Positions 5,713 through 43,574 of a stretch of 45,703 bases of DNA are shown here, one piece after another (the stretch's first letter is position 1; each line of letters opens with the position of its first letter). The stretch covers positions 1 to 45,703 of the forward strand of contig QKAU01000033.1 in assembly GCA_003246265.1 (NCBI GenBank), written 5' to 3'. This DNA is from Kiritimatiellales bacterium. GTDB lineage: Bacteria > Verrucomicrobiota > Kiritimatiellia > Kiritimatiellales > Pontiellaceae. Both the position numbers and the translations under genes were made by a program. The notes under the pieces are model-generated. The model did no database searches, was not told where the DNA came from, and saw nothing but the letters and a program-made list of their open reading frames with translations.

Positions 5713-5715
5713 GGG

Positions 5716-7149: not shown

Positions 7150-7164
7150 AGTCTACCGCGGGGC

Positions 7165-8855: not shown

Positions 8856-8939
8856 GTTTGAAACCGTCGAATGGAACCGCGCATTATGCCCGAAGGCCAA
8901 GGCGAGTCAAGCAACCAGCCCCGGCGGCAATGCCACCCA

Positions 8940-9995: not shown

Positions 9996-10003
9996 GAATC
10001 AAC

Positions 10004-11308: not shown

Positions 11309-11355
11309 GGCCTATCCTCAGTGTTCAATGGCCGGGAAACGTACCCTGACCGCGT

Positions 11356-12720
11356 TCATTTGCCGATGCAGAAGCGCGAGAAAATATTGTCCAGAAGCTC
11401 GTCGTGGTAGGCCCGCCCCGTGACCTGCCCGAGCATTTCGAGGGCCGTTCGCAGATGTTCACTGGCCATCGCCGCGTTCTCTTCGATGTTGCGCTCCAGC
11501 AGACTCCTTGCGCTCCGGGCTTCGTGGTGGGCCTTGGCAAGCAGGGCGCGGTGGCGCTCCGAAATGACGGCATGGGGAGGGGCGTGCAGGTCGGCGCCGC
11601 GCTCCAGCGCCTGCGCCATCGCCTTCTTAAGGTCGGCCAGCCCTCGGCCGGAAGCCAGGGACGTTTCGATGCCGTCGATCTGCACCCTCCTGCCCAGGTC
11701 CACCTTGTTCAGGACCACGATGCTGCGGTCGGGATCGAGCCGGCCCAGACGGACGCGGTCTTCCTCGTGCAGGGGCTCGGAGGCGTCGACCAGGTAGATG
11801 GCGAGGTGCGCCTCCGCGCCGTGGGCCTCCGCGCGGCGGATGCCTTCGGCCTCGATTTCGCAGTCGGTTTGGCGCAGCCCCGCGGTGTCGATGATGCGCA
11901 AGGGGATGCCATCGAGCACGAAGCCCTCCTCGATGGTGTCGCGCGTGGTGCCGGCGGTGCTCGACACGATGGCGCGGTCGTAGCCCAGAAGGGCGTTGAG
12001 CAACGTGGACTTGCCGGCATTGGGTCGGCCAAGGATGACGATGCGGGCACCTTCGCGCAGCAGCCGCCCCTCGTCCCAGGTGTCGAACAGCTCGTCCAGT
12101 TCGAGAAAGGTACGGTCCAGCAGGCTGGCAATGCCGGAAAAGACATCGTCAGGCAGCTCGTCCTCCACGAAATCGAGGGTGGTCTCCAGGTTGGCGGCAA
12201 CCTCCATGAAGGCGTCGTAGAGCGCGTTGAAGCGCTGGCTGAGCCGGCCTTCCATCTGTTCGAGGGCGGCGGCGGCGGCACGGTCGGACCGGGCCCGGAT
12301 CAGGTCGTAGATTCCTTCGGCCTGCACGAGGTCGATGCGCCCGTTGAGGAAGGCCCGTTTGGTGAACTCGCCCGGCTCGGCCATGCGGGCCCCCGCTTCC
12401 AGCACCCGCCGCAGGATGCGACGGAGCACGACGGAGCCGCCATGGCCCTGGATCTCGACCACATCCTCGCAGGTATAGCTTCTGGGCGCGCGCATCACGA
12501 GTGCCAGTCCGGCATCGATCTCGCCGCCATCGGCTTCGACGACCTTTCCGTAGGCAAAGGTTCCATGCTCGCGCACGGAGAGGGGGGTGCCGTCCAAAGG
12601 ATGGAAGAACTGGTCGACAATCTGCCAAACACCGGGGCCCGAGATGCGCACGATGCCGACCCCACCCTCGCCCGGGGGGGTGGCGATCGCCGCAATGGTC
12701 TCCGCGTCGTAGGACAACAT
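11356..12720 (-). CDS. mnmE: tRNA uridine-5-carboxymethylaminomethyl(34) synthesis GTPase MnmE
   Basis: A complete 454-residue MnmE (TrmE). With MnmG it modifies the wobble uridine of certain tRNAs. The N-terminal tetrahydrofolate-binding domain starts [22 protein letters not shown]-like after MLSYDAE. The embedded G domain shows G1 GRPNAGKS (231-238), G3 DTAG (278-281) and G4 NKVD (338-341), and the protein ends with the diagnostic CIGK. No strong Shine-Dalgarno precedes the ATG at 12720. A hairpin at 12784-12807 separates it from the EF-hand gene, so mnmE probably has its own promoter and starts the long run through hisD, hisC and the ABC cluster. Confidence 0.97.
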
Positions 12721-12783
12721 GCGCGGGATGATAGCCGTTTGGAACGGGCGGGAAAGCAGAATCCGACCGGCCTGGGAAAAGGA

Positions 12784-12807
12784 AACCCCGCGCCGTGGCG
12801 CGGGGTT
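12784..12807 (-). terminator. Perfect hairpin, probable terminator after the EF-hand gene
   Basis: Eleven-base perfect inverted repeat, AACCCCGCGCC and GGCGCGGGGTT, around a 2-base loop. It lies 25 bases past the stop of the minus-strand EF-hand gene and upstream of mnmE. The minus strand continues with TTTCC, so the U-tract is short; the stem is strong enough for partial or full termination. Confidence 0.65.
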
Positions 12808-12832
12808 CTTTCATGGAACTAAGGGGGCGACG

Positions 12833-13123
12833 CTATTCGGCCGCCGGCTGTTCCGCACCCTTTTCTTTCTTCTTTTGGGCATGGGCCTTCTCTTCGGGAC
12901 TCAGGACGCCGTCCTTGTTGGTGTCCATCTTGTCGAAACGGGCTTCGGTCTTGGCCTGGTCGAACTCCTGGCCCTTCTTTTCGGCCATCTTGCGCTGGTT
13001 TTCTACGTATTGGGCCTTGGTGACGCTGCCGTCCTTCTTTCCCTTCTCCTTCTGCGTGCCCTCTTCGGCCTGCACAGCGACTGCAACGCAGCCCACCAGG
13101 GCCGCGAACAACCACTTCTTCAT
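12833..13123 (-). CDS. Small secreted EF-hand protein
   Basis: A 96-residue exported protein. The signal peptide is MKKWLFAALVGCVAVAVQA, with cleavage expected after Ala19. The mature part is highly charged. It holds one good EF-hand loop, DTNKDGVLSPEE, with Ca-ligand positions D-N-D-V-S-E, and a weaker half-site, KKDGSVTKAQY, about 45 residues earlier; the tail is Lys/Glu/Ala rich. The start at 13123 is set by AGGAGG 8 bases upstream and by the signal peptide; a longer frame lacks both. It is probably a periplasmic calcium-binding protein. No partner is evident. Confidence 0.85.
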   Translation of the reverse strand: MKKWLFAALVGCVAVAVQAEEGTQKEKGKKDGSVTKAQYVENQRKMAEKKGQEFDQAKTEARFDKMDTNKDGVLSPEEKAHAQKKKEKGAEQPAAE

Positions 13124-13246
13124 GGCAACCCTCCTATCGGAAGTTTTGGCCCGGCCGTTGCCCAATCCCAATCATGGAACAACCCGGAAACCACGCATGG
13201 AACGTAGCATATCGCGGCGGCATGGACACTCGCATAAATAAAAAAA

Positions 13247-13264
13247 GCGGCCGTGGAAGGCCGC
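13247..13264 (-). terminator. Rho-independent terminator of the ferredoxin gene
   Basis: Stem GCGGCC/GGCCGC with a 6-base loop. On the minus strand it is followed directly by a run of seven T and then ATTTA. It lies 24 bases after the ferredoxin stop codon, which is textbook position and form. Confidence 0.9.
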
Positions 13265-13288
13265 CTTCTCGATGCAGGTTGCGTTGCG

Positions 13289-13459
13289 CTAGCCGGCGGA
13301 AATCGCATCCACCGGGCAGGAATCGGCGCAGGCGCCGCAATCCGTGCAGGTGTTGGCGTCGATGACGAACTGGTCGTCGCCTTGGCTGATGGCCTCGACG
13401 GGGCAGGTCGACTCGCAGGCGCCGCAGGAAATGCATTCGCTGGAAATGACATATGCCAT
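13289..13459 (-). CDS. 2[4Fe-4S] ferredoxin
   Basis: A 56-residue clostridial-type ferredoxin, a soluble low-potential electron carrier. Two complete cluster motifs are visible, CISCGACESTCP and CTDCGACADSCP, each CxxCxxCxxxCP, giving two cubane clusters with the usual cross-ligation. The start at 13459 (MAYVISSEC) is fixed by AGAAGGAG upstream; the longer frame adds unrelated residues. Its own terminator follows, so it is a single-gene unit, divergent from the Fur-family gene across a 151-base intergenic region. The redox partner is not encoded beside it; a flavin reductase lies about 6 kb away without operon linkage. Confidence 0.96.
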   Translation of the reverse strand: MAYVISSECISCGACESTCPVEAISQGDDQFVIDANTCTDCGACADSCPVDAISAG

Positions 13460-13610
13460 GGTTTCTACTCCTTCTCTGGTTGGTTTAGCTGGGACAGATT
13501 TGTGGCCGAAAGGGGGCGAAGTTACCAGCAAAAACCGCGATTACAGCTTTATTTATCCTCCCCGGGCGTGTTTATATGTAGATTCAATTTAAAGAAACGA
13601 CGGTGTGGTT

Positions 13611-14090
13611 ATGAGCATGGATGAACGGCAGTTGCCCGAGGAGGTCCGGGAGTCGGTCGAGCAGGCGTGGCCCCTTTTTGTGGATTTCCTCAAGAAAAAG
13701 GAGGCCCGGATCACGCAGGCGCGGAAAATCGTCCTTACCCAGGTCTTTATGCGGCACGACCATTTTTGCGCCGACGACCTGGCCGCCGAGCTCTCCAGCG
13801 GACCCAACCACGTGAGCCGCGGGACGGTCTACCGGACCTTGGCGCTCATGGAGGAGGCCGGACTGGTGCGGGTCATCCGCGACACCGACGTCCATGCCCA
13901 CTACGAGCACACCTTCAACCATCCCCAGCACGAGCACATGATTTGCGACCAGTGCGGGCAGTTCATCGAGTTTTCCGATGAGCAGATCGTGAAGCTCATC
14001 GCCAAGGCCTGCTCCGCGCACGGCTTCAGGGAACGCACCCACCGGATCGCCGTATTCGGGATCTGCCGCACCTGCGCCGGGGGCGCATAG
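13611..14090 (+). CDS. Fur family metal-responsive transcriptional regulator
   Basis: A 159-residue Fur-type repressor. The N-terminal winged helix includes ARITQARKIVLTQVF and SRGTVYRTLALMEEAGLV (recognition helix). The C-terminal metal-binding dimer domain has HPQHEHMICDQCGQFIEF. Two CxxC pairs (CDQC and CRTC near the end) form the structural zinc site. The pattern is closer to Fur than to Zur or PerR, but metal identity cannot be read safely. ATG 13611 and ATG 13617 are both possible starts, and a GTG lies at 13605. It is divergent from the ferredoxin gene and convergent with the Cys-rich membrane peptide, so iron or redox control of this small neighbourhood is plausible. Confidence 0.92.
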   Translation: MSMDERQLPEEVRESVEQAWPLFVDFLKKKEARITQARKIVLTQVFMRHDHFCADDLAAELSSGPNHVSRGTVYRTLALMEEAGLVRVIRDTDVHAHYEHTFNHPQHEHMICDQCGQFIEFSDEQIVKLIAKACSAHGFRERTHRIAVFGICRTCAGGA

Positions 14091-14101
14091 GTATTGGCCG
14101 A

Positions 14102-14320
14102 TCAATGGGCGGAAGCCGCCTTCTTCCGGGCAGTCTCGGCCTGGAATTCCCGCAGCTCGCAGGAAGGGCACTGCACCTTTTCGCCCTTGTATACGACGCA
14201 GTCGTGGCTGCCGGAGCAACCGGGCTGCTTCTTCCTCAGCGCATTGACGGTTGCCAGGATGCCGAGGGGGACTCCCACGATCAGGAAGGCCGCCAGGAAC
14301 AGGGTAAGGAAAGTCGCCAT
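14102..14320 (-). CDS. Small Cys-rich single-pass membrane protein
   Basis: A 72-residue protein. Residues 3-27 form one membrane helix, followed by a basic turn (ALRKKQPG) and a tail with two cysteine pairs, CSGSHDC and CPSC. The layout recalls FeoB-associated Cys-rich and NqrM-type small metal-binding membrane proteins, but the spacing fits neither exactly, so no name is given. It ends 11 bases from the stop of the Fur-family gene. A weak AAGGCG precedes the ATG. It probably binds a metal or takes part in thiol chemistry at the membrane surface. Confidence 0.68.
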   Translation of the reverse strand: MATFLTLFLAAFLIVGVPLGILATVNALRKKQPGCSGSHDCVVYKGEKVQCPSCELREFQAETARKKAASAH

Positions 14321-14452
14321 TTTTCGCCTTGTTTTTCGGGGTGAAAGCTACCGGGAGCAACACTTGACACTTACCCGCATGCGACGGATACTGCAACCCC
14401 TTTGTTCACGATAAGCTTTCGGGTGCCGCCGGAGCGGCAGGGTGGTCCACCA

Positions 14453-15724
14453 ATGAGGAACGAGCATAAGACACGATCGGCAGGGCGTGCCGCCGCGGGG
14501 TTCGATCCCCTCGCCTCCGATTCCAACTTCTATTCCGGGTCGCCGAGCGAGCGGCCGCTCTACGAACAGCACAACCTGTCCGAGGCGCAGCGGGTGCGCA
14601 AGACCCGCCGGCACCAGGCGGTGGCCGGGCGCAGGAAAGAGGGGATCGATCCACGCGAAAAGATGGCCCTGTTGGCCATTCTCAAGGCGGGCGTCGTGCT
14701 CGTGCTGCTCGTCATCGCCTTTTTCCTGCTGTGGAAAGGGATCAAGCTCTACGAGGAAAGCATCTGGATCGAAAACCAGCGGCCGGAAGAGGCCGCCCCC
14801 GTGCTGCGTGAAGTGGTCCAGCTGGAGGAATTCGATATCGGGGACCAGGATTCGAGGATCCTGTTCGCCGAGCGCGTGAAGATGTGGGACGAAGCCGAAC
14901 GGCTGGTCCGGTCGGCCGATACCTTCATGCAGCGCAACAATATCGACCAGGCCATCGGCCGCTGCCAGGAGGCACTGCGGCTCGACCCTTTCCACATGGG
15001 TGCCTTGGAACGGCTGGGCAGGCTCTACAAGGCTCAGGGAATGCATGTGGAGGCGATCAACGCCTACATCCGGGCGCTGAGCGTCGATCCATCGCGTGAA
15101 GACCTCCATCTCGGGTTGATCGACCTGCTGGACCAGCGGGGGGATTCCGATGCGGTGGTCTTCATGGCCCGGTGGTATTTCGGGCAGCACACGTACAATG
15201 CCGATGTGCAGCGCCATCTGGCCAGCGCCCTCTACCAGAAGGGGGAATTTGCAGAAGCCGCGGAAGCGTTTGAGCGGGCGCTCAAGGATGCGCCCGAAGA
15301 TGTGGGGATTCTCGAACAGCTGGCAAAGGCGCGCATCCAGCTCGGCGAGTACGACAAGGCGCTGCCCTCCCTCGAGAAACTGCGCGAATTGAACTTCAAC
15401 GAACAGACCTACTACCTGCTCATCGCGGTATGCCACGCCCAGCTCGGCCATGGGCTCGAGACGGTCCAGACGCTGGGCAAGGCGGCGCATCTCTTCGGGC
15501 AGAATACGGTGGTTGGTTGGATGCAGGATCCACGTCTCGATCCGGTGCGCCAGGACCGCACCTTCCAGGCGTTTGCGGACCGCGTAGGCGGGGAGGAGTT
15601 CCGCAAGTGGCTCGAGCGCGTGGCCCAGAGCATGGAGAGCGAGGATCGCGAGAAGGTCATGCCCCAGTTGACCCTGCCTGAACGCGAGACGATCGACACC
15701 GAATTGCTCAAGCCCCGCAAATAG
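14453..15724 (+). CDS. TPR-repeat membrane protein
   Basis: A 423-residue protein with a charged cytoplasmic N-terminus of about 70 residues, one membrane helix (about residues 71-94, MALLAILKAGVVLVLLVIAF) and a C-terminal solenoid of about six tetratricopeptide repeats. Clear TPR helices are DQAIGRCQEALRLDP, VEAINAYIRALSVDP and AEAAEAFERALKDAP. The start at 14453 is preferred; an upstream TTG would add 17 residues and lacks a ribosome site. TPR domains scaffold protein complexes. It precedes the glycosyltransferase-like gene by 16 bases and so heads a TPR-GT-ComEC operon, suggesting envelope assembly. Specific role unknown. Confidence 0.87.
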   Translation: MRNEHKTRSAGRAAAGFDPLASDSNFYSGSPSERPLYEQHNLSEAQRVRKTRRHQAVAGRRKEGIDPREKMALLAILKAGVVLVLLVIAFFLLWKGIKLYEESIWIENQRPEEAAPVLREVVQLEEFDIGDQDSRILFAERVKMWDEAERLVRSADTFMQRNNIDQAIGRCQEALRLDPFHMGALERLGRLYKAQGMHVEAINAYIRALSVDPSREDLHLGLIDLLDQRGDSDAVVFMARWYFGQHTYNADVQRHLASALYQKGEFAEAAEAFERALKDAPEDVGILEQLAKARIQLGEYDKALPSLEKLRELNFNEQTYYLLIAVCHAQLGHGLETVQTLGKAAHLFGQNTVVGWMQDPRLDPVRQDRTFQAFADRVGGEEFRKWLERVAQSMESEDREKVMPQLTLPERETIDTELLKPRK

Positions 15725-15740
15725 ACCGGCTGCGAAGTCG

Positions 15741-16865
15741 ATGAAGATACTCTTTGCCACTTTCGGGGAGCTGTCCGTCGAATCGGGATCGGTCCGATCC
15801 GTCGCGATGCTCCGGGCCTTGGCCGACGCCGGGCACCGCGTTGATGTGATCGCGGCCCGCGCCAAGCTGCCGAGCCATCCCCATGTGCAGGTGCTGGCCG
15901 GCGCGGGGGAGGGCCGCCTCCCTCAACGCAAGTTGCGCATGGCGATCATGGGTGCATTGGGCAGGCGCACCCACGACGTGGTCCACGCCCTGGATACCTG
16001 CGCCCCTTTTGCCTCCCGCATCTGCCGCCTGCGCAAGGTTCCATTCGTGTACGACGCGGCCCGGTGCTTTACCGGCCCCGCCGCCGAGCCACCCTCCATC
16101 GGATGGCGCTGGTTCGCCAGGCGCGGCCAGCGCATCGAAAAGCGGATGATTGGCCAGGCGGCTGCGATCTTCGCCGGGTGCGATGCCCTGGTTCAGGACC
16201 TCCGCGGACTGGCTCCGGAGGCGGATGTGTCCTTGGTGGAAGACGTTCCGGCCCAATTCCTTGCCACTCCTGAAGACGGTGCCTTGCGGGCGCTGCAGGG
16301 AGGCGTCGTCGATGGGCCGGTCGGGCTGCTGGTGGTGGCTGGCGTGGTGCAGCCGACCTCGGCTGTCCTGCGCGATGTGCTGCTGGCCTCCCGCAAGGTC
16401 GTGGATTCGAATCCGCAGGCCCTATTCGTCTTCAAGGGATTACCGGTCCGCGATGCCGCGGCATGTGCCGCCAACCTGGATATCGCCGGGCGCTGCGTGT
16501 TCCTGGAGGAGAGCGAAACGGCGCGCTACCTCGGGCTGTTGAAGGCCGCCGGCGTTCTGTTGTTCGTACCGCCCGCGTCAGGCCGCTACCTGGATGCCGA
16601 AGCCTACACCCTGCTGCATGCTTCCGCCCCCCTCGTTGCTGTTCAGGCTGACGCCTACGCAAAGCTGCTGACCGACCGCAACTGCATCCCGGTCCTGCAG
16701 GGTGCGGATGCGATTGCCGAAGGGGTGCGGCAGGCGGTCCAGGAGCCGCTCTTTTCCTTGGGAATTTCCCTGAACGGCGAGCAGCTGATTGCGGATCGGC
16801 ACTCCTATTCCAGCTTCAAGCACAAGGTCCGCATGGCCTACCACGCCCTTGGCATCATTGAATAG
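15741..16865 (+). CDS. GT-B fold glycosyltransferase-like protein, degenerate active site
   Basis: A 374-residue protein with the start of a GT-B glycosyltransferase: MKILFATFGELSVESGSVRSVAMLRALADAGHRVDVI, typical of GT4 proteins. The C-terminal Rossmann half includes NPQALFVFKGLP and RCVFLEESETARYLGLLKAAGVLLFVP. In GT4 enzymes an EX7E motif binds the donor. Here the second Glu can be aligned (Glu287 in LDAEAY) but the first is replaced by a small residue in PPASGRY. It may be inactive or use an unusual donor. It lies 16 bases after the TPR gene and 8 before the ComEC gene. Fold confident, activity not. Confidence 0.78.
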   Translation: MKILFATFGELSVESGSVRSVAMLRALADAGHRVDVIAARAKLPSHPHVQVLAGAGEGRLPQRKLRMAIMGALGRRTHDVVHALDTCAPFASRICRLRKVPFVYDAARCFTGPAAEPPSIGWRWFARRGQRIEKRMIGQAAAIFAGCDALVQDLRGLAPEADVSLVEDVPAQFLATPEDGALRALQGGVVDGPVGLLVVAGVVQPTSAVLRDVLLASRKVVDSNPQALFVFKGLPVRDAAACAANLDIAGRCVFLEESETARYLGLLKAAGVLLFVPPASGRYLDAEAYTLLHASAPLVAVQADAYAKLLTDRNCIPVLQGADAIAEGVRQAVQEPLFSLGISLNGEQLIADRHSYSSFKHKVRMAYHALGIIE

Positions 16866-16873
16866 GAGGGGCC

Positions 16874-18430
16874 ATGCCCGACGGCTATCCAGGGCAGGCG
16901 AAGCGACGCCCGATGGTAGGACTGGGGATTGCGGTCGTTGCCGGGATGGCGCTTGGGGCCAGCGCCATCATCTCCTTGGAGCTCCTTTGGGTGGCAAGCT
17001 TCGCCCTGCTGGTGGCCGGGATGGCCTTGCGCCGCTCGCGGAGGTCGACCCTGCTGGTCCACCTGGCCGTGGCGGCCGTGGCGGCTTGCCGATTCCAGCT
17101 GACCGATCCAGGCCTCTCCCCGGCATCGATCGACCGCATGGCCGGACAGCTTCCGGTGGAGGAAGCGGAGGTTGAGGGGTGGATCTGCTCCGAGCCGGAA
17201 TTCCATCCCTACGGATCGCGGAACCTCGGATTCTGGCTCTTCAGCCTGCAATGCGAAGGGATTCGCGCCGGTGGGGGGTGGACGACCCGCCGGGGCACGA
17301 TCGATGTGGTGCTTTCCGGGGCCGAGGCGTCAACCGTTGCGCGGATCGGCGATCGCGTCCGGCTCGCAGGTGTACTGGCGAAGCGCAAATATCCCGGTGG
17401 CCATGCCATCGAATTGAAGGTGGTCCGCCCCGGCGACTGCCTGACCATCTCTACACGGCATGCCGCGCTGCGGCCCGGCAGCCTGGGCAGGGCGATCCGC
17501 GGGGCCCTGGAAGGGCGCCTGGAGGTGGGGATCGAGGACCTTGCCTCCCAGCAGGCCATCCTCAAGGCCCTGGTGCTGGGCAGACGTGATGCCGTTCCCC
17601 GGGAAACCATGGAGCCCTTCCGCCGTACCGGTGCGATCCACATCTTCGCGATCTCGGGACTGCATGTCGGGATTGCCGGCTTGCTGCTGGCCGTCCTGTT
17701 GCAGGCCGCCGGGATGCCGCGGGACTGGCTGGGGGCGGGGCTTCTGCCGCTGCTGTCCCTCTACGTGGTAGCCACGGGCATGTCGGCCAGCGCATTGCGC
17801 GCGTTGACCATGGCCGGCGTCTACCTCCTCGCCCCGCTGGTGCGCCGCGAACCGGATGTCCCGTCCTCCGTGGCCTTTGCCGCCATCCTGCTGCTTTTCA
17901 TCCAACCCATGGAACTGCTATCGGCCGGTTTCGTATTCTCGTTTGCCGTGGTTTCCGCGCTCGTCATGGCCTACTCGGCCGTTCCCGCGCACTGGCTGGC
18001 GCACGGCGGCTGGCTGCGCCGCTACGTGGTTTCGCTGGCCGTGACCTCCTTTGCGGCCAGCCTGGCCGCCATGCCGCTTACGGCGCTCTATTTCGGCACC
18101 TACTCGCCTATTGCGCTGGCGGGCAACCTGGTCGTGGTGCCGTTGACCTTCTGCATCGTCCTGTCGGGGTGGCTGTCGTTGGCGATCCCTTTCCTGTCGG
18201 GCCTCTTCAACCATGCGGCCGTGGCGTTCATCGATCTAATGGTCTCGGCAGTGCGGCTTCTGGATGCCGTGCCCGGTTCGTGCGTCGACGTCGTCTCGCC
18301 GCCGCTGCCCGCCGTGCTGCTGTGGTTTGCCAGCCTGGCCTACCTGTTTACGCACGGAAGCGTCAGGCGGGCGTTGCCGCCCGCCCTGGCCGGGCTCGTC
18401 CTTGCCATGCTATGGGGTCTTGCGGGCTGA
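16874..18430 (+). CDS. comEC: ComEC/Rec2-type competence channel protein without MBL domain
   Basis: A 518-residue polytopic membrane protein. Near the N-terminus are two or three helices, then an OB-like soluble region with [11 protein letters not shown] and [12 protein letters not shown]. The competence core begins with the conserved [14 protein letters not shown] (His256) and continues with about seven helices to the end, including [19 protein letters not shown], another ComEC landmark. ComEC transports single-stranded DNA during natural transformation. Full-length ComEC has a C-terminal metallo-beta-lactamase nuclease domain; none is present here and the frame ends right after the last helix. 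The last 21 bases overlap the convergent trhO. Identity is good; competence function in this organism is inference. Confidence 0.9.
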
Positions 18431-19396
18431 GGCCTGCGCGGCGCGCAGGCGCTTGCGCTGCCGCCGCCCTTCGCCGACGGCCCCGCCGGCGGCTCCCAAG
18501 TGGGCTTCGCCCCGTTCACCGGCCAGTCGGACCTGGCGTTCGCGCTCTCGCAGGCGTTCCTTCCGCTCTGCCGAGGTTTCGCCGTGGCAACGGGGGCAGC
18601 TTACGCCGGGCTGGTAGAGTTCGCTGGCGCGATCCTTCGGGCCGATGGGCCTGCGGCAGCCATGGCATAGCTCGTGGCAACCCTTCTCCAGCATGTGCCC
18701 GAGGGCGACGCGCTGGTCGAAGACAAAGCATTCGCCCTCCCAGAGGGATTCCTCCTCGGGAATCTCCTCGAGGTATCCGAGGATGCCGCCTTTCAGGTGG
18801 TAGACCTCGTCGAAGCCGAGCTTCTTGAGGTAGGCGGTCGACTTTTCGCAGCGGATGCCGCCGGTGCAGAACATGGCCACCTTCCGGTGGCAGGCGGGAT
18901 CGAGGTTTTCGGCGACGTAGCGGGGGAAGTCGCGGAACGACCGGGTGTGTGGATCGATGGCGTTGCGGAAGCTGCCGATCGCGGTTTCATAGTCGTTGCG
19001 GGTATCGATCACCACCGTTGCGGGATCGCTGATCAGCTCATTCCAGTCGCTTGGCTCCACATAGGTGCCCGCCGAAGAGCGGGGATCGATGCCCTCGACG
19101 CCGAGGGTGACGATCTCCCTTTTCAGCCGGACCTTGGCCCGGAAGAATGGATTGGTGTCGTGCCGGGAGAATTTGGCGTCGATGTCCGCCATGCGGGGGT
19201 CGGAGCGGAGCCGGACAAGGAGTGCGTCGATGGCTTCGCCGGAACCGGCAACGGTTCCGTTGATGCCTTCGCGGGCCAGCAGGAGGGTTCCAAGGATGCC
19301 GAGTCCGTGCATGAGGTCAAGCAGGGGCTGGCGCAGCATTTCCGGATCCTCGAGAAAGGCAAACTTGTAGAGGGCGCAAACTACGATCGGTTTCAT
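18410..19396 (-). CDS. trhO: tRNA uridine-34 hydroxylase, rhodanese family (TrhO)
   Basis: A 328-residue member of the TrhO/YceA family, which makes 5-hydroxyuridine at tRNA wobble position 34. The N-terminal acylphosphatase-like domain contains [14 protein letters not shown]. The rhodanese domain has [10 protein letters not shown] and the active loop [14 protein letters not shown] (Cys177 and Cys183). The C-terminal part has paired cysteines (CHGC and CPRC) normal for the family, then a basic, low-complexity tail of about 45 residues. The start at 19396 gives the standard N-terminus [12 protein letters not shown]; the longer frame is spurious. It is convergent with the ComEC gene and overlaps it by 21 bases. 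Confidence 0.93.
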
Positions 19397-34344: not shown

Positions 34345-36111
34345 TCAGTGCTGCAGCCGGTGCATCTCGTAGAAGAAGCCGCGGCGCGCCATGAGGTCGT
34401 CGTAGGTGCCCACCTCTTCGATGCGCCCGGCCTTCATCACGACGATGCGGCTGGCCTTGCGGATGGTCGAAAGGCGATGCGCCACGATGAAGGTGGTGCG
34501 GTTGCGGACGGCGCGGTCGATCGCCTCCTGGACCTGCTTTTCGGAGACGACATCGAGCGCGGAGGTGGCTTCGTCGAGCACCAGGATGCGTGGATCCCGG
34601 ATCAGTGCCCGGGCGATCGCGATGCGCTGGCGCTGGCCGCCCGACAAGAGCGCGCCGTCCTCCCCGATGCGCGTATCGAGCCCGTGGGGCAGGCTGTCGA
34701 CCATGTCGGCGAGTTGTGCCGCCGCAAGGACGGCCGCCAGGCGCTCTTCGCCGCAGGATTCCACGCCGTAGACGATGTTTTCGCGGATTGTCCCGGAGAA
34801 GAGCACGGTCTCCTGCGGCACGACGGAGACGAACCGGCGGACCGTGCGCATGTCGAGATCCTCCATCTCCTGGCCGTCGAAAAGGATGCGGCCCGACTGC
34901 GGGCGGCGGAAGCCGATCAGTAGCTGGACGAGGGTCGACTTGCCCGCGCCGCTCGGCCCGACCAGCGCGATGCACTCGCCGGGCATGACGTCGAGGCTGA
35001 ACTGCGCGACGGACGGGGGCTTGCCGGGGGAATGGGCAAAGGTGACGTGGTCGAACCGGACTGCCCCCTCCACCGCCTGCACCGCCCTGCGTCCGAGGTT
35101 GTGCTCCAGGTCGGGGCACTCGAGCACCTCGCCAATGGAGCGGATCGACTCCACGCCGCGGGCCAGCTGCGGGTAGATGCCCAGCAGCTGCGAGACGCAG
35201 TTGACCATCATGCCGAACAGGCTCTGGTAGAGCACGATGTCGCCGACGCTGATCCACCCGCGCAGGCAGAACCATACCAGCACCGCCAGCGCCGCGACCA
35301 TTGCCAGCTGGAAGCCCACCCAGGAGCTGGAGCCGAAGAGCGCATTGATCAGGTCGAGCCGCCGCCCCCGCCGGTTGACGGCCTGGAACTTGGCGTCCAT
35401 CCGGACCAGCGCCACCTCCTCGAGCCCGTGCGCCCGGACGATCGGGATCATGTTGAGCATCTCCACGACGTCGGAGGACATCCGCTCGATCTCCGAACGG
35501 AAGGCGGTGTTGCGGTCGGCCATCCGCTCGCCGAACAGCATGCGCAGCAACGAAACCAGCGGGGCCATGGCGAGGAAGAAGACCAGCAGCCGCGGTTCCT
35601 TGAGCGCCGTCACCCCCACGGCGAACGCAAACGACATGAGGGCGACCGCCCCCGCGTCGCCCAGCAGCATGCAGAACATCTGCACCTGCTCGACGTCGCG
35701 CAGGACCTTGGCCTGCAGCCGGCCGCTTTCGGTGCGGTCGTGGAAGGCGATCGAGAGTTGCTGGAGACGTGTGACCAGCGCGCTCCGGAGATTCCGTTCC
35801 AGATCCCGCACCGCGCCGCTCAGCAGCGAGACGTACAGCGTGTGCGTCGGCACGTTCTGGGCAATCAGCGCCACGACCGCCACGAACCAGAGGATCAGCT
35901 GCCGCGGGTCGGCTGCGGACGGATCGGCCAGGTCGTTGATCGCGCGGGCGACGAGAAACGGGATCACCCACACCGGGGAATGCTTGACCGCCAGCACGAG
36001 CATGGTGAGCGCATGGTACCACCACGGCCGGTCCAGCAGGCCGTAGAGTGTGCGCAAGGGCCGGTCGCTGCGGTAGGCATGCTCCAGCGGCCTGAAGGTC
36101 GGGCGCGGCAT
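34345..36111 (-). CDS. ABC exporter, fused permease and ATPase
   Basis: A 588-residue half-transporter of the lipid/drug exporter type (MsbA-like layout). About six membrane helices occupy residues 30-310. The ATPase domain follows: Walker A GPSGAGKS (385-392), Q-loop VPQETVLFSGTIREN, signature LLSGGQRQRIAIARAL, Walker B ILVLDEATSALD, and H-loop IVAHRLSTIRKA. It would act as a homodimer in the inner membrane. No partner gene or clear substrate clue is adjacent. It is convergent with the secreted-protein gene. Confidence 0.94.
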   Translation of the reverse strand: MPRPTFRPLEHAYRSDRPLRTLYGLLDRPWWYHALTMLVLAVKHSPVWVIPFLVARAINDLADPSAADPRQLILWFVAVVALIAQNVPTHTLYVSLLSGAVRDLERNLRSALVTRLQQLSIAFHDRTESGRLQAKVLRDVEQVQMFCMLLGDAGAVALMSFAFAVGVTALKEPRLLVFFLAMAPLVSLLRMLFGERMADRNTAFRSEIERMSSDVVEMLNMIPIVRAHGLEEVALVRMDAKFQAVNRRGRRLDLINALFGSSSWVGFQLAMVAALAVLVWFCLRGWISVGDIVLYQSLFGMMVNCVSQLLGIYPQLARGVESIRSIGEVLECPDLEHNLGRRAVQAVEGAVRFDHVTFAHSPGKPPSVAQFSLDVMPGECIALVGPSGAGKSTLVQLLIGFRRPQSGRILFDGQEMEDLDMRTVRRFVSVVPQETVLFSGTIRENIVYGVESCGEERLAAVLAAAQLADMVDSLPHGLDTRIGEDGALLSGGQRQRIAIARALIRDPRILVLDEATSALDVVSEKQVQEAIDRAVRNRTTFIVAHRLSTIRKASRIVVMKAGRIEEVGTYDDLMARRGFFYEMHRLQH

Positions 36112-36226
36112 CGGTCAACTCCTGGTTCAATCCACAACGCGATGTGGCATCCGATGCATTGGAAGCCGATCCCGCCTTGCATTTCAATCCCAAAGGACCG
36201 CGCCGCCGAAGATTGCGGGGCTAGGA

Positions 36227-37378
36227 TTAATAGCGGCCGAACTCGCGGACGGTTTGCCACATGGCGAGCATGTTTTCGACGGGGACCCCCCACTGGATGG
36301 CGTGGACCGGGGCGAAGACGAAGCCGCCGCCTGGCATGAGTATGTCGAGCTGCCGCCTGGTTTCTTCGACGACCTGCCCGACGGTTCCCGTGGGGAGGAT
36401 CTTCTGGGTTTCGAGCCCGCCGCCCCAGAAGGTCAGTTCCTTGCCGAACTCCCGCTTCAGGAGCTGGGTGTCCATGTCGGCGGCCGTGTACTGGACCGGA
36501 TTGAGGATTTCGACGCCGACGTCGATCAGGTCGGGGATGATTTTCCGGATGCTGCCGCAGGAATGCATCATCATCCTGACATGGGGGGCCTTGCCCTTGA
36601 TGAATTCCACCAGCTGTTTCAGGCGCGGCTTGATATGGGCGCGGTACATCTCCGGGGAGATCATCAGGTTGATCTGCGTGCCCATGTCGTCCAGCTCCTT
36701 CACGATGTCGATCCGGCCCCCGAGGCGGCTGAGCGCCTCGTCCCAGAATTCCATCTTCATTTCGAGGACCTTGTCCATCAGCAGGAACGCGCGCTCCTCC
36801 TCCATGGCGAGGTCGACCAGGAAGCGGTCGTAGCCCATGAGCTGGTTGCAGGTCTGGAAGATGCCGTTCCCGAAGCAGTTGTCGAAGACCACGGGATAGG
36901 TTCCGTTTTCGGACAAGGTGTCGATCCTTTCCTCCAGCCCCCGGAAGCGTCGTTCGTCGCGCGGGTTGGGGAAGGGGTAGCGCCGGATGGCGTCCGCGTC
37001 GAGATCGGCCAGAGGGTAGCGGTGCATGTCGAAATAGAGTCCGCCATCGACGGGTTTGCGCCAGCCGATGCCGAACTCGTCGGTCAGGTGGAGGTAGCCG
37101 TCGTCTTCCCTGCGCAGCGCGTACGCCTCCGGGGGCTGGGGATTGACGCCGCGTACATCCGCCCCGAGATGCTCCTGGACTTCGGGGTCGACGTCGGCGA
37201 ACTGGGCGGTCAGCAGTTTGACGGCGATGGGCCGGTCCTGGCAGAGGCCCAGATGGTTCTTCAGCTGCTCGTAGGCCTTGATATGGATGGTGGTTTCCAT
37301 GGTGGCGCCGAAATCGAGCGGCAGCCGGTCGGGTTCCCGGTGGGCGATGCTGGCCATTACCCGGTCTTTTGGAGTCAT
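36227..37378 (-). CDS. URO-D family methyltransferase-like protein (not HemE)
   Basis: A 383-residue TIM-barrel protein of the uroporphyrinogen decarboxylase superfamily, in the branch including corrinoid-dependent methyltransferases (MtaA/MtbA type). The start MTPKDRVMASIAHREPDRLPLDFG is typical. MMMHSCGSIRKIIPDLIDVGVEILNPVQ carries the HxC zinc motif (His272, Cys274). The distal Cys of MtaA is absent; the block GGGFVFAPVHAIQWGVPVENML supplies His359 instead. The GHR/arginine motifs of true HemE are lacking. The start at 37378 has AGGTG upstream. It is divergent from the GH2-MFS operon over 241 bases, hinting at a role with methylated glycans, which is inference. Confidence 0.85.
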   Translation of the reverse strand: MTPKDRVMASIAHREPDRLPLDFGATMETTIHIKAYEQLKNHLGLCQDRPIAVKLLTAQFADVDPEVQEHLGADVRGVNPQPPEAYALRREDDGYLHLTDEFGIGWRKPVDGGLYFDMHRYPLADLDADAIRRYPFPNPRDERRFRGLEERIDTLSENGTYPVVFDNCFGNGIFQTCNQLMGYDRFLVDLAMEEERAFLLMDKVLEMKMEFWDEALSRLGGRIDIVKELDDMGTQINLMISPEMYRAHIKPRLKQLVEFIKGKAPHVRMMMHSCGSIRKIIPDLIDVGVEILNPVQYTAADMDTQLLKREFGKELTFWGGGLETQKILPTGTVGQVVEETRRQLDILMPGGGFVFAPVHAIQWGVPVENMLAMWQTVREFGRY

Positions 37379-37454
37379 ATATGCACCTATCTGTCCCTTC
37401 CCTGCGCACATGGGCCGACGCATGGTGGAATTTCCCGCACCCCGTCCGGGTATT

Positions 37455-37486
37455 GTCAAGGCCGGCCTGGGGCGGCCCACCTTGAC
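37455..37486. promoter_or_regulatory. Imperfect dyad between the URO-D and GH2 genes
   Basis: Outer arms GTCAAGG and CCTTGAC pair perfectly, inner arms GGCC and GGCC pair, and two bases between them do not; the loop is TGGGGC. The dyad lies in the divergent region, 77 bases from the URO-D start and 134 from the GH2 start. It may be an operator for a shared regulator that is not encoded here. No T-run follows. Confidence 0.5.
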
Positions 37487-37619
37487 TTTGCCGGGGCCAT
37501 CGATTAGTCGTATCCGGTGGGCATAGTATACCGGGCGGGATATCGGGGATATAGGACGTTTCTCCAGTATCGCCCCTCGCGCAGCTTCGCTAGATTGTCC
37601 CGAAATCGGAGAACATTGC

Positions 37620-39986
<2,367 letters not shown>

Positions 39987-40020
39987 CCTGGACCCCGGAG
40001 CCGGAAAGGATAAGCCAGCC

Positions 40021-41610
40021 ATGATGCGCCCAACCACCCGAACCGCCTTCATCGCCGCCATGATCGTGACGATAGGCGGCTTCGTCTTCGGCCTCGACCT
40101 GGGGGTTATTGCCGGAACGTTCGGCTACCTGACCGCGCAGTGGGGCCTGACCGATATCCAGATCGGCAACGTCGGGGCCGCCCCGGGCTTCGGGGCGATC
40201 TTCGCCCTCCTGTTCGCCGGACCGGTCAGCAACAGGATCGGCCGGAAGAAGACCATCCAGGTCATCGCGGCGCTCTACCTGGTCTCCGCGGTGACCTCCG
40301 CGCTGGCCCTCGGCTACTGGTCCCTGGTGGCGGCCCGTTTCCTCGGCGGACTGGCCTTCTGTTCGCTCTCCCTGGCCTCCATGTACATCGGCGAGATCGC
40401 CCCGTCGAACCTGCGCGGCCGAATGGTCGCCATGAACCAGATCAACATCACCATTGGCCTGACTGCGGCATTCTTCGTCAATTTCGTGATCCAGTCGATA
40501 GCCGAGTCCAGCCCCGGATGGGCGGCGCCGCTCCAGCTAGGCACGAACGCCTGGCGCTGGATGCTGGGCTCCGAAATCGTGCCGGCGCTGGCGTGGTTGC
40601 TCCTGCTGGCATGGATTCCCGAAAGCCCGCGCTGGCTGATGTCGGCCGGCCGGGAGGCCGAGGCCCGCAAGGCGATGGCGCGGGTGATGCCGCAGGATGG
40701 AATCGAAGGCGAGGTCGCCTCCATCCGCCAGAGCATGCAGCGCAGCCACGGCGCGAAGACGCTGGGCGCGCAGCTACGCGAGCTGTTCAGCCGGCATGCG
40801 CGCGCGGCGGCCATCATCGGCATCGTGATCGCGGCCATCCAGCCGATCACCGGCATCAACGCGATCCTCACCTATGCGCCCATCGTCTTCAGCCAGTCCG
40901 GCATGTCCGATCCCTTCAAGAGCACGATCTGGATCGGGGTCGTCAGCGTGGTGGCCAACCTGGGGGCCTTCGCCCTGGTGGACCGGCTGGGCCGGCGCCC
41001 GGTCGTCCTGCTGGGATTGCTCTGGTGCATCGTCAGCCTGGGGGCCTGTGGCTGGGCGTTCCACCACGCACGGTATTCGTTCGACGAGGCATCGCTCGCC
41101 AGGGTTGGGCAGAAGCTCGGTGCGGAGCCTGCCGCCGCCGTCGCCGGCCTGGAATCGGCGCACTATGCGAGCGACCTGGCCTTCATGCAAGAGATGCGGA
41201 GGGTGTTGGGCGAACAGCTGGCCAACGACAACAAGACCTTCCTGATCGGACAGGCGGCCCATCTGGACACGGGCCTGGTGCTGGTTGCCATCCTCAGCTT
41301 CATCGCCGCCTTCAACGTTTCCATCGGTCCGGTGATGTGGGTGGTCTTTTCGGAGATCTTCCCGACCCAGCTGCGGGGCATCGCCATACCGACGGCGCAT
41401 CTGGTTACCGCGATCGTCAACTATTTCGTCCAGTTCCTGTTCCCGTGGCAGTTGGCCAACCAGGGGGCCCGCGACATCTTCCTGTTCTATTGCATCTGCG
41501 TGGCCGCCGGGCTCGCCGCCCTCTTCTTCCTCCTGCCGGAAACCAAGAACAAGACCATCGAGCAGATCGAGGCCGAGCTGGTTGCGGGCCGCAGGAAGGC
41601 TGGGCGATGA
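40021..41610 (+). CDS. Sugar porter family MFS transporter
   Basis: A 529-residue major facilitator with 12 predicted helices. Sugar-porter motifs are GRKK after helix 2, RFLGGLAFCSLSLASMYIGEIAP in helix 4, PESPRWL in the central loop, QPITGINAILTYAPIVF in helix 7, RLGRRPV after helix 8, and PETKNKTIEQIE at the end. A hydrophilic insert of about 65 residues (about 351-417) sits between helices 9 and 10, longer than usual. It follows the GH2 gene by 34 bases, so it likely imports the oligosaccharide or sugar handled by that enzyme. Confidence 0.92.
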   Translation: MMRPTTRTAFIAAMIVTIGGFVFGLDLGVIAGTFGYLTAQWGLTDIQIGNVGAAPGFGAIFALLFAGPVSNRIGRKKTIQVIAALYLVSAVTSALALGYWSLVAARFLGGLAFCSLSLASMYIGEIAPSNLRGRMVAMNQINITIGLTAAFFVNFVIQSIAESSPGWAAPLQLGTNAWRWMLGSEIVPALAWLLLLAWIPESPRWLMSAGREAEARKAMARVMPQDGIEGEVASIRQSMQRSHGAKTLGAQLRELFSRHARAAAIIGIVIAAIQPITGINAILTYAPIVFSQSGMSDPFKSTIWIGVVSVVANLGAFALVDRLGRRPVVLLGLLWCIVSLGACGWAFHHARYSFDEASLARVGQKLGAEPAAAVAGLESAHYASDLAFMQEMRRVLGEQLANDNKTFLIGQAAHLDTGLVLVAILSFIAAFNVSIGPVMWVVFSEIFPTQLRGIAIPTAHLVTAIVNYFVQFLFPWQLANQGARDIFLFYCICVAAGLAALFFLLPETKNKTIEQIEAELVAGRRKAGR

Positions 41611-41699
41611 TTTGCGATGAGGCCTTGATAAGCTTGTCCCGGATGGTGTAGAGGTGGCGGGAATTAAGGACTCCACTCGTTCAGGGCAGGCAGGTGGCG

Positions 41700-43574
41700 A
41701 TGGTGAAGAGGCGTAGGGGCATAGTCAAAGGGGCACCGAGCGGGTTGGTGGTCAGCCTGATCCTCCATGCGGCCGCCTTCTTGCTGGCCGGATTGTTCGT
41801 GGTCTTCACCGTGGTGCAGAAGCAGGAGCAGAAGTTCGTGCCGCCCAAGGCCGTCGAACGGCCGAAGATGAAGCTCAAGAAGCCGACGGTCAAGATGCGC
41901 AAGAACGTCAAGCCCAAGGCCTCCAACCGCATCGTCACGAAGGTCAAGCGCTCCAATATGCCCAACATCCAGCTGCCCGAAATGAGCGGCCTCTCCGATG
42001 GGCTGGGTAGCGGCGGGATCGGGTCCATGGAGCTGCTGCCCGAGTTCGAAACCATCAGCATGCTCGGATCCGCCCAGTCGACGGGAAGCGACCTGGTCGG
42101 GACCTACTACGACTTCACCCGCGATCGCAACGGACGGGATATTTCGATGGATGTCGTGACGTGGCGCCACGAGATCATCAAGTTCCTTCGCGGCGGCTGG
42201 CGGACGTCCGATTTCACCAAATACTACCGGGCGCCGAGGAAGGTCTACGCCACCTGCCTGGTCGTCCCCCCCGTGCTCTCCTCCATCGCCCCCTCCACCT
42301 TCGGCGACAAGGATGCCGCCGGCGTCTGGTGGCTGGTCCATTACAAGGGGCAGATCGTCTACCCCAGGGACATCACCTTCCGCTTCTGGGGACAGGCCGA
42401 CGAAACCATGGCCGTGCGGGTCGGCGGGAAAATGGTCCTGGGCGTGCGCTGGGAAAACTCCACGGGCTACAGCAACGTCGATCCCGACACCATTCCCCCC
42501 AACCTGTGGAGGTCGGACTCGCTCGACACCCGCAAGTACTTTATGGGCAACACACTCTCCGTGGTCGGTGACTGGATCACCCTCAAGGCGGGCGAACCCC
42601 AGGACATCGAGATCGTGATCGGCGACAACGGCGGGCAGGCCTGCTTCATGCTCGCCGTGCAGGAGCAGGGCGTAGAATATGAGCGCAACGTCCAAGGCGG
42701 GCCCCTGTTGCCCGCGTTCAAGACGACCAAGCTATCGCACGACCTGATCGACGCCATCTACAAGAACCTCGTGCCCGGCGAGATCAGCCTGACCAACGGG
42801 CCCGTCTTCAACGACTTTGTCGCCGTGCCTTCGTCGGCCACGGCACCGGAACCCGCAGCGCCGATGGCCGCGCCGGAGGCCGCCATGCCCCCCGCGCCCC
42901 CGAAGTTGCGGCCATGGACCCTGGCCAACGGACAGTCCCTTGAAGGGGAGTTGATCAATGTGATGGGCAGCCAGGCCGTGCTCAAGGATGCCAAGGGCAA
43001 GACGCTCAAGGTGCCCGTGGACGAGCTCTCCGTCGAAGACCGCATCTTCATCGAACTGGCGAAGCCGCCCACCTTCAAGATCGACAAGCTGCAGGATTGC
43101 AAGCAAATGACTTTCCTGATGGGGCGGAACGACGCCAACCAGATCCGTCCGCCGGAGGACCGTTGCCACTACGGCATCCGGGTCCAGCAGCAGTCGGCGG
43201 GCGAATATCCGCACCGAGTAAACGTGGAGTTCTTCATCATCGGGCGGGAGCGGCTGGGCGACAAGTACATCCTGTTCGACCGCCAGTCGACCTCGTTCGT
43301 GCCCTCTTCGGAGAACGGCCGGAGGCATGAATTTATGAGCGCCCGCGAGGTGGTGCTGGAAAACTACGCGGTCGACAACGAACCGCGCGGCGAATACTAC
43401 ATGGCCTACTTGGCGGTTCTGACGGACGAGCGCGGCGAGGTGATCGGGGTTGGAACATCCGCGGATTGGCTGTACGAAAACTACGACAACCTCAAGCAGC
43501 GCTATGCGGGGAACTACATGGACAAGAACTGTCTCAGGACCTACCCGACGCGCCCGCCCCGGACCCGCTACTAG
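41700..43574 (+). CDS. TonB-like / PA14-like / SHD1-like composite membrane protein
   Basis: A 624-residue protein of mixed architecture. A basic N-terminus and one membrane helix (about residues 15-39, SLILHAAAFLLAGLFVVF) are followed by a Lys/Pro-rich stretch (40-85) as in TonB proteins. Then comes a PA14-like beta domain (about 135-330) with WWLVHYKGQIVYPRDITFRFWGQADETMAVRVGG, an Ala/Pro linker (about 385-400), and an SHD1-like domain (about 403-451), RPWTLANGQSLEGELI then LKVPVDELSVEDR. A C-terminal domain of about 165 residues is unassigned. A GTG at 41694 is an alternative start. The last 41 bases overlap convergent pdxB. Function unknown. Confidence 0.8.
   Translation: MVKRRRGIVKGAPSGLVVSLILHAAAFLLAGLFVVFTVVQKQEQKFVPPKAVERPKMKLKKPTVKMRKNVKPKASNRIVTKVKRSNMPNIQLPEMSGLSDGLGSGGIGSMELLPEFETISMLGSAQSTGSDLVGTYYDFTRDRNGRDISMDVVTWRHEIIKFLRGGWRTSDFTKYYRAPRKVYATCLVVPPVLSSIAPSTFGDKDAAGVWWLVHYKGQIVYPRDITFRFWGQADETMAVRVGGKMVLGVRWENSTGYSNVDPDTIPPNLWRSDSLDTRKYFMGNTLSVVGDWITLKAGEPQDIEIVIGDNGGQACFMLAVQEQGVEYERNVQGGPLLPAFKTTKLSHDLIDAIYKNLVPGEISLTNGPVFNDFVAVPSSATAPEPAAPMAAPEAAMPPAPPKLRPWTLANGQSLEGELINVMGSQAVLKDAKGKTLKVPVDELSVEDRIFIELAKPPTFKIDKLQDCKQMTFLMGRNDANQIRPPEDRCHYGIRVQQQSAGEYPHRVNVEFFIIGRERLGDKYILFDRQSTSFVPSSENGRRHEFMSAREVVLENYAVDNEPRGEYYMAYLAVLTDERGEVIGVGTSADWLYENYDNLKQRYAGNYMDKNCLRTYPTRPPRTRY

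Follow-up and report, generated by a model that had tools for sequence, protein, structure and literature searches.

The window, a 45,703-nucleotide contig of a Kiritimatiellales bacterium of the Pontiellaceae (QKAU01000033.1, taken whole), carries a gene for a protein of the URO-D superfamily, P0001, which we propose to be a corrinoid-dependent O-demethylase acting on a methylated galactose of red algae. Judging from sequence comparison and gene context, we put the probability of this reading at about 0.5. The most likely substrate would be 6-O-methyl-D-galactose, with 2-O-methyl-3,6-anhydro-galactose as the alternative. Methyl ethers shield seaweed and plant polysaccharides. According to the accessible part of one report, porphyran contains 6-O-methyl-D-galactose, and marine Flavobacteriia demethylate it oxidatively via a P450 (PMC10033563). 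In anaerobes, the removal of this methyl group is described in the available part of a 2025 paper as not elucidated and as probably proceeding "by a mechanism to be discovered" (PMC12316285). In the open-licence literature, no report of corrinoid-dependent or anaerobic demethylation of methyl sugars was found, most subscription journals lying outside this search. P0001 may be named as a candidate for the missing anaerobic step. A cultured Pontiella grows anaerobically on agar and dried Porphyra, as stated in the accessible part of PMC10880615.

The window corresponds to contig C8 of a genome of 2.997 Mb (81 contigs, 96% complete). The gene of P0001 is divergent from that of a GH2 glycosidase, P0002, with 241 bp between them, and P0002 is followed on the same strand, after a gap of 34 bp, by a sugar porter, P0003:

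36227..37378, minus strand: URO-D-superfamily protein P0001 (383 aa, PF01208), candidate corrinoid-dependent O-demethylase (methyltransferase 1, MT1)
37620..39986, plus strand: GH2 exo-glycosidase P0002 (788 aa, Pfam GH2 domains)
40021..41610, plus strand: MFS sugar porter P0003 of the XylE/GlcP type (529 aa, TIGR00879)

All three are real genes and not chance readings, because they have homologues at 50-65% identity in other genomes. Longer readings of P0001 are possible from upstream TTG or GTG codons; the relatives align from the ATG that gives 383 aa. An earlier note, made from the letters of the window alone, had placed the three genes in this arrangement, and the Pfam and TIGR00879 matches and the coordinates agree with it; the lack of export signals that it claimed for all three proteins was also found by eye for the URO-D protein and the GH2 enzyme.

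P0001 belongs to the URO-D superfamily by its PF01208 match (8.5e-22 for the whole protein, residues 131-380; 78.1 bits against a cut-off of 23.9). The own genome holds 12 URO-D matches, among them a separate HemE on contig C75 (MRQAGR, 3.8e-117). The N-terminal RQAGR motif, which we take to be the mark of the uroporphyrinogen decarboxylase HemE, was not seen by eye in P0001; for this reason, and because of the separate HemE, P0001 was rejected as HemE. The nearest curated NCBIfam families are the methylcobalamin:CoM methyltransferases (56 against 244 bits) and MtaA/CmuA (TIGR01463; 53.2 against 235.4 bits), and P0001 is far under the cut-off of both. When a profile of 13 relatives (A1) was compared with the PDB, MtaA 4ay7 (3.8e-9), two UROD chains and CdmB were matched, the last weakly (1.4e-4, profile positions 305-380 only). 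The AlphaFold2 model of P0001 (mean pLDDT 95.9) is a UROD/MtaA barrel, for which Foldseek placed MtaA first (8.5e-16) and VIA-align 2 gave a tie between UROD and MtaA (Z 26-28). P0001 thus has the UroD fold of the MT1 proteins of three-component corrinoid O-demethylases, a fold that UROD shares, and the tie led us to drop the fold alone as proof of methyl transfer.

A putative metal site was recognized in the alignment of P0001 with 74 of 80 clade loci (A2; L132, L167, L170, L173, L180 and L181 omitted). Among the 75 rows, H272 and H359 are invariant, and C274 is kept in 61, the other 14 having Asp. The profile alignment places H272, C274 and H359 on H246, C248 and C325 of MtaA 4ay7, which are presumably its zinc ligands. 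In the clade, a His-Cys/Asp-His site seems to replace the His-Cys-Cys of MtaA. MtaA is the closest solved relative of P0001 by profile and by Foldseek E-value; it differs in the Cys at the third ligand position, where all 75 rows have His, and in that P0001 remains below the NCBIfam cut-offs.

The clade of P0001 was examined in the best 80 of at least 575 confirmed relatives from a scan of the genome contig collection. By their labels, these loci belong to Chloroflexota, Bacillota, Spirochaetota, Bacteroidota, Planctomycetota, Verrucomicrobiota, Armatimonadota and other phyla. By tblastn, a stand-alone corrinoid protein was found in 11 of the 80 loci (9 of 80 when the gene calls were clustered instead), RACo in 2 and a pterin-binding methyltransferase in 2; for sugar genes, the numbers were 9 for UxaC, 5 for UxaE and 8 for NagB, and UxaA/UxaB-type genes also occur near clade members. 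In 6 of the 11 loci (L107, L111, L126, L133, L145 and L175), the corrinoid gene follows immediately downstream of the URO-D gene, and in L107 and L116 it is itself followed by a pterin-binding methyltransferase gene. In the first 50 of the 80 loci, the stand-alone corrinoid protein occurs in the flanks of 9 as against 0.77 expected (P = 1.3e-7), and UxaC in 6 as against 0.086 expected (P = 5e-10); these Poisson values assume independent loci, which related genomes are not. The expectation was derived from all 213 B12-binding_2 matches and 27 UxaC matches in the 50 genomes (several of the latter fragments, and one under the cut-off); it is a genome-wide background and not one of other URO-D clades, and it was scored by HMM, whereas the loci were scored by tblastn.

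The sugar genes beside the clade differ from one part of it to another. In relatives from the class or order of the window organism, the member in L061 (genome G099) is surrounded by genes for RhaA, RhaT, a class II aldolase and an FGGY sugar kinase, that in L059 (G048) stands before RhaM, and that in L063 has an FAA hydrolase gene on one side and a KDPG aldolase gene on the other; GH106 and GH95 are near the member in L060 (G029), and GH29 is near that in L062 (G131). The URO-D subclade of L059-L062 may be regarded as candidate O-methyl-deoxysugar demethylases. Rhamnose or fucose as the substrate, an idea prompted by L059-L061, may still apply to that subclade; it was dropped for the subclade of P0001, which is tied to the ALDH, GH2 and MFS of galactan loci. 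UxaC is a neighbour in L135, L143, L144, L150, L152, L153, L163, L167 and L180, often together with further URO-D proteins and NagB. The members beside UxaC in Chloroflexota are candidate demethylases of 4-O-methyl-glucuronate or another methyl-uronate.

Some parts of the clade are thus linked with corrinoid proteins and others with several sugar pathways, a distribution that fits a common step of methyl removal from different sugars. The earlier note had made its proposal depend on a link of this clade to sugar genes, and such a link exists in the uronate genes, rhamnose genes and corrinoid proteins that recur beside it. The survey of glycosidase neighbours that the earlier note had called for gave no general link: a P0002-like GH2 was found in 1 of the 80 loci, and weakly. 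As a tentative generalization, somewhat short of an even chance, the clade would consist of oxygen-independent, corrinoid-dependent methyl-sugar O-demethylases working on a shared corrinoid/folate hub, with a galactan subclade that replaces the P450, a uronate subclade beside UxaC/UxaE for 4-O-methyl-glucuronate, and a deoxysugar subclade by rhamnose genes for O-methyl-rhamnoses. If this holds for the uronate subclade, it would also have a bearing on plant xylan, with its methyl-glucuronate, and on the supply of formate from methyl groups in sediments.

A corrinoid and folate system, the partner that the earlier note had said to look for, is present in the own genome (G000) as a single cluster on contig C37:

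G000:C37:8000-27999, 2363-18928: C37 hub (locus L046), complete-looking methyl-oxidation cluster and cassette

The hub comprises FolD, MTHFR joined to a pterin-binding domain, a formate/nitrite channel, formate-THF ligase (Fhs), a corrinoid protein, RACo and a DUF1638 protein. It is followed by a cassette of an AraC regulator, a sodium:solute symporter (SSF), a rhamnose-mutarotase-domain protein and a second URO-D protein (30% identical to P0001), and further on by a protein of the fatty-acid hydroxylase family and by a URO-D protein fused to a thioredoxin domain. Only two B12-binding_2 matches exist in the genome, MetH and the stand-alone corrinoid protein of C37, and the sole RACo match is also on C37. 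In each of the seven genomes tested, there is exactly one corrinoid match of MetH size and one that stands alone. The own genome has 11 URO-D genes besides HemE for its one stand-alone corrinoid protein, which suggests a single methyl-transfer hub fed by several URO-D adaptors; one of the URO-D genes, on C50, sits directly before a sugar porter gene. In stretches of 20 kb each, the hub core (FolD, MTHFR/pterin, channel, Fhs, corrinoid protein, RACo, DUF1638, URO-D/thioredoxin) is kept in the congeneric genomes G005 and G024, and that of G027, also a congener, is without the MTHFR/pterin gene. The cassette occurs only in G021 among the stretches of G005, G021, G024 and G027. On another contig of the own genome (L047, G000:C80), two URO-D matches were seen together with MetH and a homocysteine S-methyltransferase joined to MTHFR.

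Known proteins with which this system may be compared are MtvB, OdmB, VdmB, MtoB and CdmB. These MT1 proteins share with the P0001 system the UroD fold and a genome that encodes a corrinoid protein, a RACo-type activase and a folate methyltransferase, although these genes are not adjacent to P0001; they also resemble the clade in that some of its members directly adjoin a corrinoid gene. In the accessible part of PMC13222342, the UroD-superfamily methyltransferases are O-demethylases of methoxylated aromatics, with CdmB acting on haloalkanes, and zinc is present in some only. In contrast, the setting of P0001 is one of sugars, its match to CdmB is the weak one given above, and its corrinoid partner would be a distant shared hub. 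As far as sequence allows, P0001 would be a UroD-type corrinoid methyltransferase, a known kind of protein, in a sugar setting.

What this sugar may be is suggested by the GH2 enzyme and the porter. P0002 matches PF22666, PF00703, PF02837, PF17786 and PF02836, all above the cut-offs, and the putative acid/base E441 and nucleophile E523 are both kept in 6 of 6 aligned members, so that it is a GH2 enzyme. It falls below the cut-offs of all ten listed NCBIfam GH2 equivalogs (GalA, GalB, LacZ and others), the best being GalA with 100.5 bits against 900. Its best PDB match is the beta-mannosidase 5n6u (2.9e-60). The assignment as a beta-mannosidase was not adopted, since mannosidases are only the nearest PDB relatives and the orthologue loci of G024 and G027 are galactan loci. 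P0003 matches PF00083 (1e-91), XylE 4gby (4.6e-57) and the sugar porter family TIGR00879 (286.9 bits, above the cut-off of 237.8).

An orthologue here means at least 59% identity over the full length, and the statements on URO-D and GH2 orthologues rest on the top matches among those listed. Among 146 genomes including the own, GH2 matches of at least 60% were found only in the own genome, G021, G024 and G027 (60-62%), which are likewise the carriers of the orthologue among the 28 congeneric genomes. In G024 and G027, the GH2 gene lies with genes for a GH86-type protein, GH117, ALDH, a CoA-transferase III, a solute-binding-like protein and an IclR-like protein; in G024, GH117 is preceded by an MFS piece with 45% identity to P0003. 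The GH117 of these loci is 90-91% identical to that of L101, which matches 3,6-anhydro-alpha-L-galactosidases (1e-126 to 2e-139; 3r4y at 2.2e-139). A PDB match of an ALDH is 6j75, presumably an anhydrogalactose dehydrogenase. The GH2 locus of G021 has an ALDH and an IclR-like gene. A search of 30 genomes gave the closest relatives of P0003 in G014, G005 and G017 (49-53%); the one in G005 stands between GH117 and a pair consisting of a sulfatase and a GH86-type protein. Two further neighbours of GH2, GH117 and ALDH were noted in L095 and L096: a solute-binding-like protein, and a CoA-transferase of family III, which in L096 has 768 aa and two matched stretches.

The own genome has seven GH86-domain matches, six of them over the cut-off, and a second galactan locus on contig C5 with a GH86 protein (8h97, 1.4e-160), a GH2 paralogue (43-44%), a GH117-like protein (36%), a dehydratase-like enolase-superfamily protein and a RhaT-family transporter. 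The GH2 paralogue elsewhere in the genome (L097) has a signal-like start, by eye. These settings make it likely that P0002 acts on oligosaccharides of red-algal galactan. GH2 galactosidases of porphyran and agar loci offer a parallel; among them, BpGH2C cleaves D-galactose, methylated and non-methylated, as described in the accessible part of PMC12316285. P0002 differs in being cytoplasmic by eye and in having beta-mannosidases as its nearest PDB entries.

Outside the own genome, the matches listed for the 146 genomes include a single URO-D orthologue, that of G021 (64-65%), and those that come next are at 41-42%. In G021, the URO-D and GH2 orthologues are 4 kb apart, with 3-4 called genes of opposite strand between them; the other called genes of the window gave no match at 1e-20 in this 20-kb stretch. 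P0001, the G021 orthologue and L105 form one tree branch with support of 100/100. L105, the closest outside relative of P0001 among the matches listed (59%), is located by an ALDH gene and RhaT-like transporters, after a transposase-like gene (by eye), and this ALDH is 62-63% identical to the ALDH next to GH2 in G024 and G027.

A complementarity was found among the four genomes with the GH2 orthologue: the own genome and G021 have the URO-D orthologue and no P450, whereas G024 and G027 have a P450 and no URO-D orthologue. The P450 genes are as follows:

G024:C1:1712232-1713380: P450 homologue, best PDB match 6g5o
G027:C12:902810-903958: P450 homologue, best PDB match 6g5o

The match of the G027 protein to 6g5o, which we take to be the 6-O-methyl-galactose demethylase P450 of Zobellia for the red-algal sugar, has an E-value of 1.6e-105, and the next entry follows at 4.5e-39. 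An oxygen-requiring enzyme is odd in a genus described as anaerobic. G021 and the two P450 congeners provide a natural comparison. Compared with the P450 of Flavobacteriia, as far as that is covered by the accessible part of PMC10033563, the proposed route has the same outcome, and GH2 is found in both genomic contexts; the P450 reaction is oxidative, yields formaldehyde and belongs to an unrelated family, whereas P0001 would transfer the methyl group to corrinoid and folate free of oxygen.

According to this proposal, the window would represent a small cytoplasmic branch of the use of red-algal galactan (agar or porphyran). P0003 would bring in a small sugar or oligosaccharide, P0002 would cut off the terminal sugar, and P0001 would move the O-methyl group of a methylated galactose unit onto the Co(I) of the single stand-alone corrinoid protein. 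The methyl group would then pass to tetrahydrofolate via the pterin-binding methyltransferase and be oxidised to formate by MTHFR, FolD and Fhs, the formate leaving through the formate channel, and RACo would re-reduce the corrinoid. One corrinoid hub would in this way serve several scattered URO-D adaptors. The methylated-glycan module of the earlier note remains plausible and gains a likely polymer, a likely partner system and a likely aerobic counterpart. The computations establish the identity of the genes, the fold and clade of P0001, the ties of that clade to corrinoid and sugar genes, the agar/porphyran surroundings of the GH2 orthologues in G024 and G027 and of a P0003 relative in G005, and the existence of the methyl-oxidation cluster. 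We infer that P0001 is a methyltransferase, which corrinoid protein it works with, what it demethylates and which way the methyl group flows.

Several observations weigh against the proposal. The corrinoid gene is not next to P0001, and the hub is on another contig; the 20-kb stretch of G021 contains the corrinoid protein, RACo, DUF1638 and URO-D/thioredoxin, and none of the four folate/formate genes. A single-sequence PDB search with P0001 gave no chain at 0.001, and its fold does not separate a methyltransferase from a decarboxylase. As the clade settings split into uronate, rhamnose, amino-sugar and others, the substrate of the P0001 subclade is not readable from the clade, and the attempt to read it from there was dropped. 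The GH2 link of the URO-D gene is limited to two genomes of one genus, with the opposite-strand genes intervening in G021, and neither GH86 nor GH117 was found in the 20-kb stretch of G021. L105 has no GH2 at its locus and no GH86 domain in its genome. G024 and G027 are near relatives (their P450s are 94% identical), so that the 2:2 split may represent one event; moreover, by eye the P450 gene has housekeeping genes in its neighbourhood in both, and it is outside a galactan locus. Lastly, G005, G017 and G014 have GH86 domains and neither the P450 nor the URO-D orthologue.

The alternative that survives these data best, although we consider it unlikely, is that P0001 is a corrinoid methyltransferase for a substrate that is not red-algal, such as another methoxy compound, a methylated polyol or an osmolyte, and that its GH2 neighbour is incidental. 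The differing sugar sets linked to the clade, some members being linked to none recognised, the lack of GH2 at L105, and the use of aromatics and haloalkanes by MT1 enzymes of the superfamily (accessible part of PMC13222342) all speak for it. Nevertheless, in G021 the URO-D gene is still linked to the GH2 orthologue although the other neighbours differ, the ALDH near the L105 URO-D gene has homologues near GH2 in G021, G024 and G027, and the latter two carry the complementary P450. In the next alternative, likewise improbable and ranked second, GH2 and MFS form an ordinary glycosidase and porter unit for agaro-oligosaccharides and the URO-D gene is a chance neighbour: in G024 and G027, GH2 occurs together with GH117 and ALDH while a URO-D orthologue is absent, and the clade is without a general GH2 link, but the preserved linkage in G021 and the P450 found instead in G024 and G027 argue against chance.

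That P0001 is not a methyltransferase and carries out another step of sugar-acid or deoxysugar metabolism (decarboxylation, lyase or epimerase) is rather doubtful. It would agree with the fold, equally near UROD, and with the 69 of 80 clade loci in whose available flanks no corrinoid gene was found, many of these flanks being ended by contig ends. However, the corrinoid enrichment, the His-Cys/Asp-His residues where MtaA has His-Cys-Cys, and the methylcobalamin:CoM methyltransferases as nearest NCBIfam (sub-cut-off) and PDB profile matches point to methyl transfer, and the unrelated sugar pathways beside the clade fit shared methyl removal better than a shared pathway step. Finally, a methyltransferase 2 role like that of MtaA, with the methyl group passing from the corrinoid to a thiol or other acceptor, is very improbable in spite of the MtaA-type best profile and family matches and the aligned His and Cys ligand positions, given His and not Cys at the third position, 53 bits against the MtaA/CmuA cut-off of 235, a hub that already has a pterin-type second methyltransferase, and a ratio of URO-D genes to corrinoid protein that fits substrate adaptors better.

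Genes outside the window were called by a GC3-based chooser of open reading frames, which misplaced some frames and failed on low-GC loci, so that the genes of the low-GC loci L105 and L108 were taken from lists of open reading frames instead; some neighbours (IclR, SDR, TPR, CobW-like, transposase and others) were named by eye without a family search. Two further features of the window itself remain to be described:

37379..37619, no strand: divergent intergenic region of 241 bp with an imperfect inverted repeat, possible operator
41700..43574, plus strand: protein whose N-terminal membrane segment is TonB-like (by eye), with a weak SHD1 match (PF03983, 20.8 bits)

The inverted repeat between P0001 and P0002 (37446-37467/37474-37495) has arms of 22 nt that are 73% complementary; it is possibly an operator, its meaning being not clear. 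A consensus scan of 36000-41800 found no sigma-70-like promoter. The PF03983 score of the 41700-43574 protein is under the cut-off of 23.7. Two other genomes have homologues with 43-44% identity in the vicinity of their GH2 orthologues (L095:17789-19684 and L096:1335-3245), and the gene is possibly part of the module. Its relatives recur near MFS or GH2 genes in the genus, in L100 and L102 by eye.

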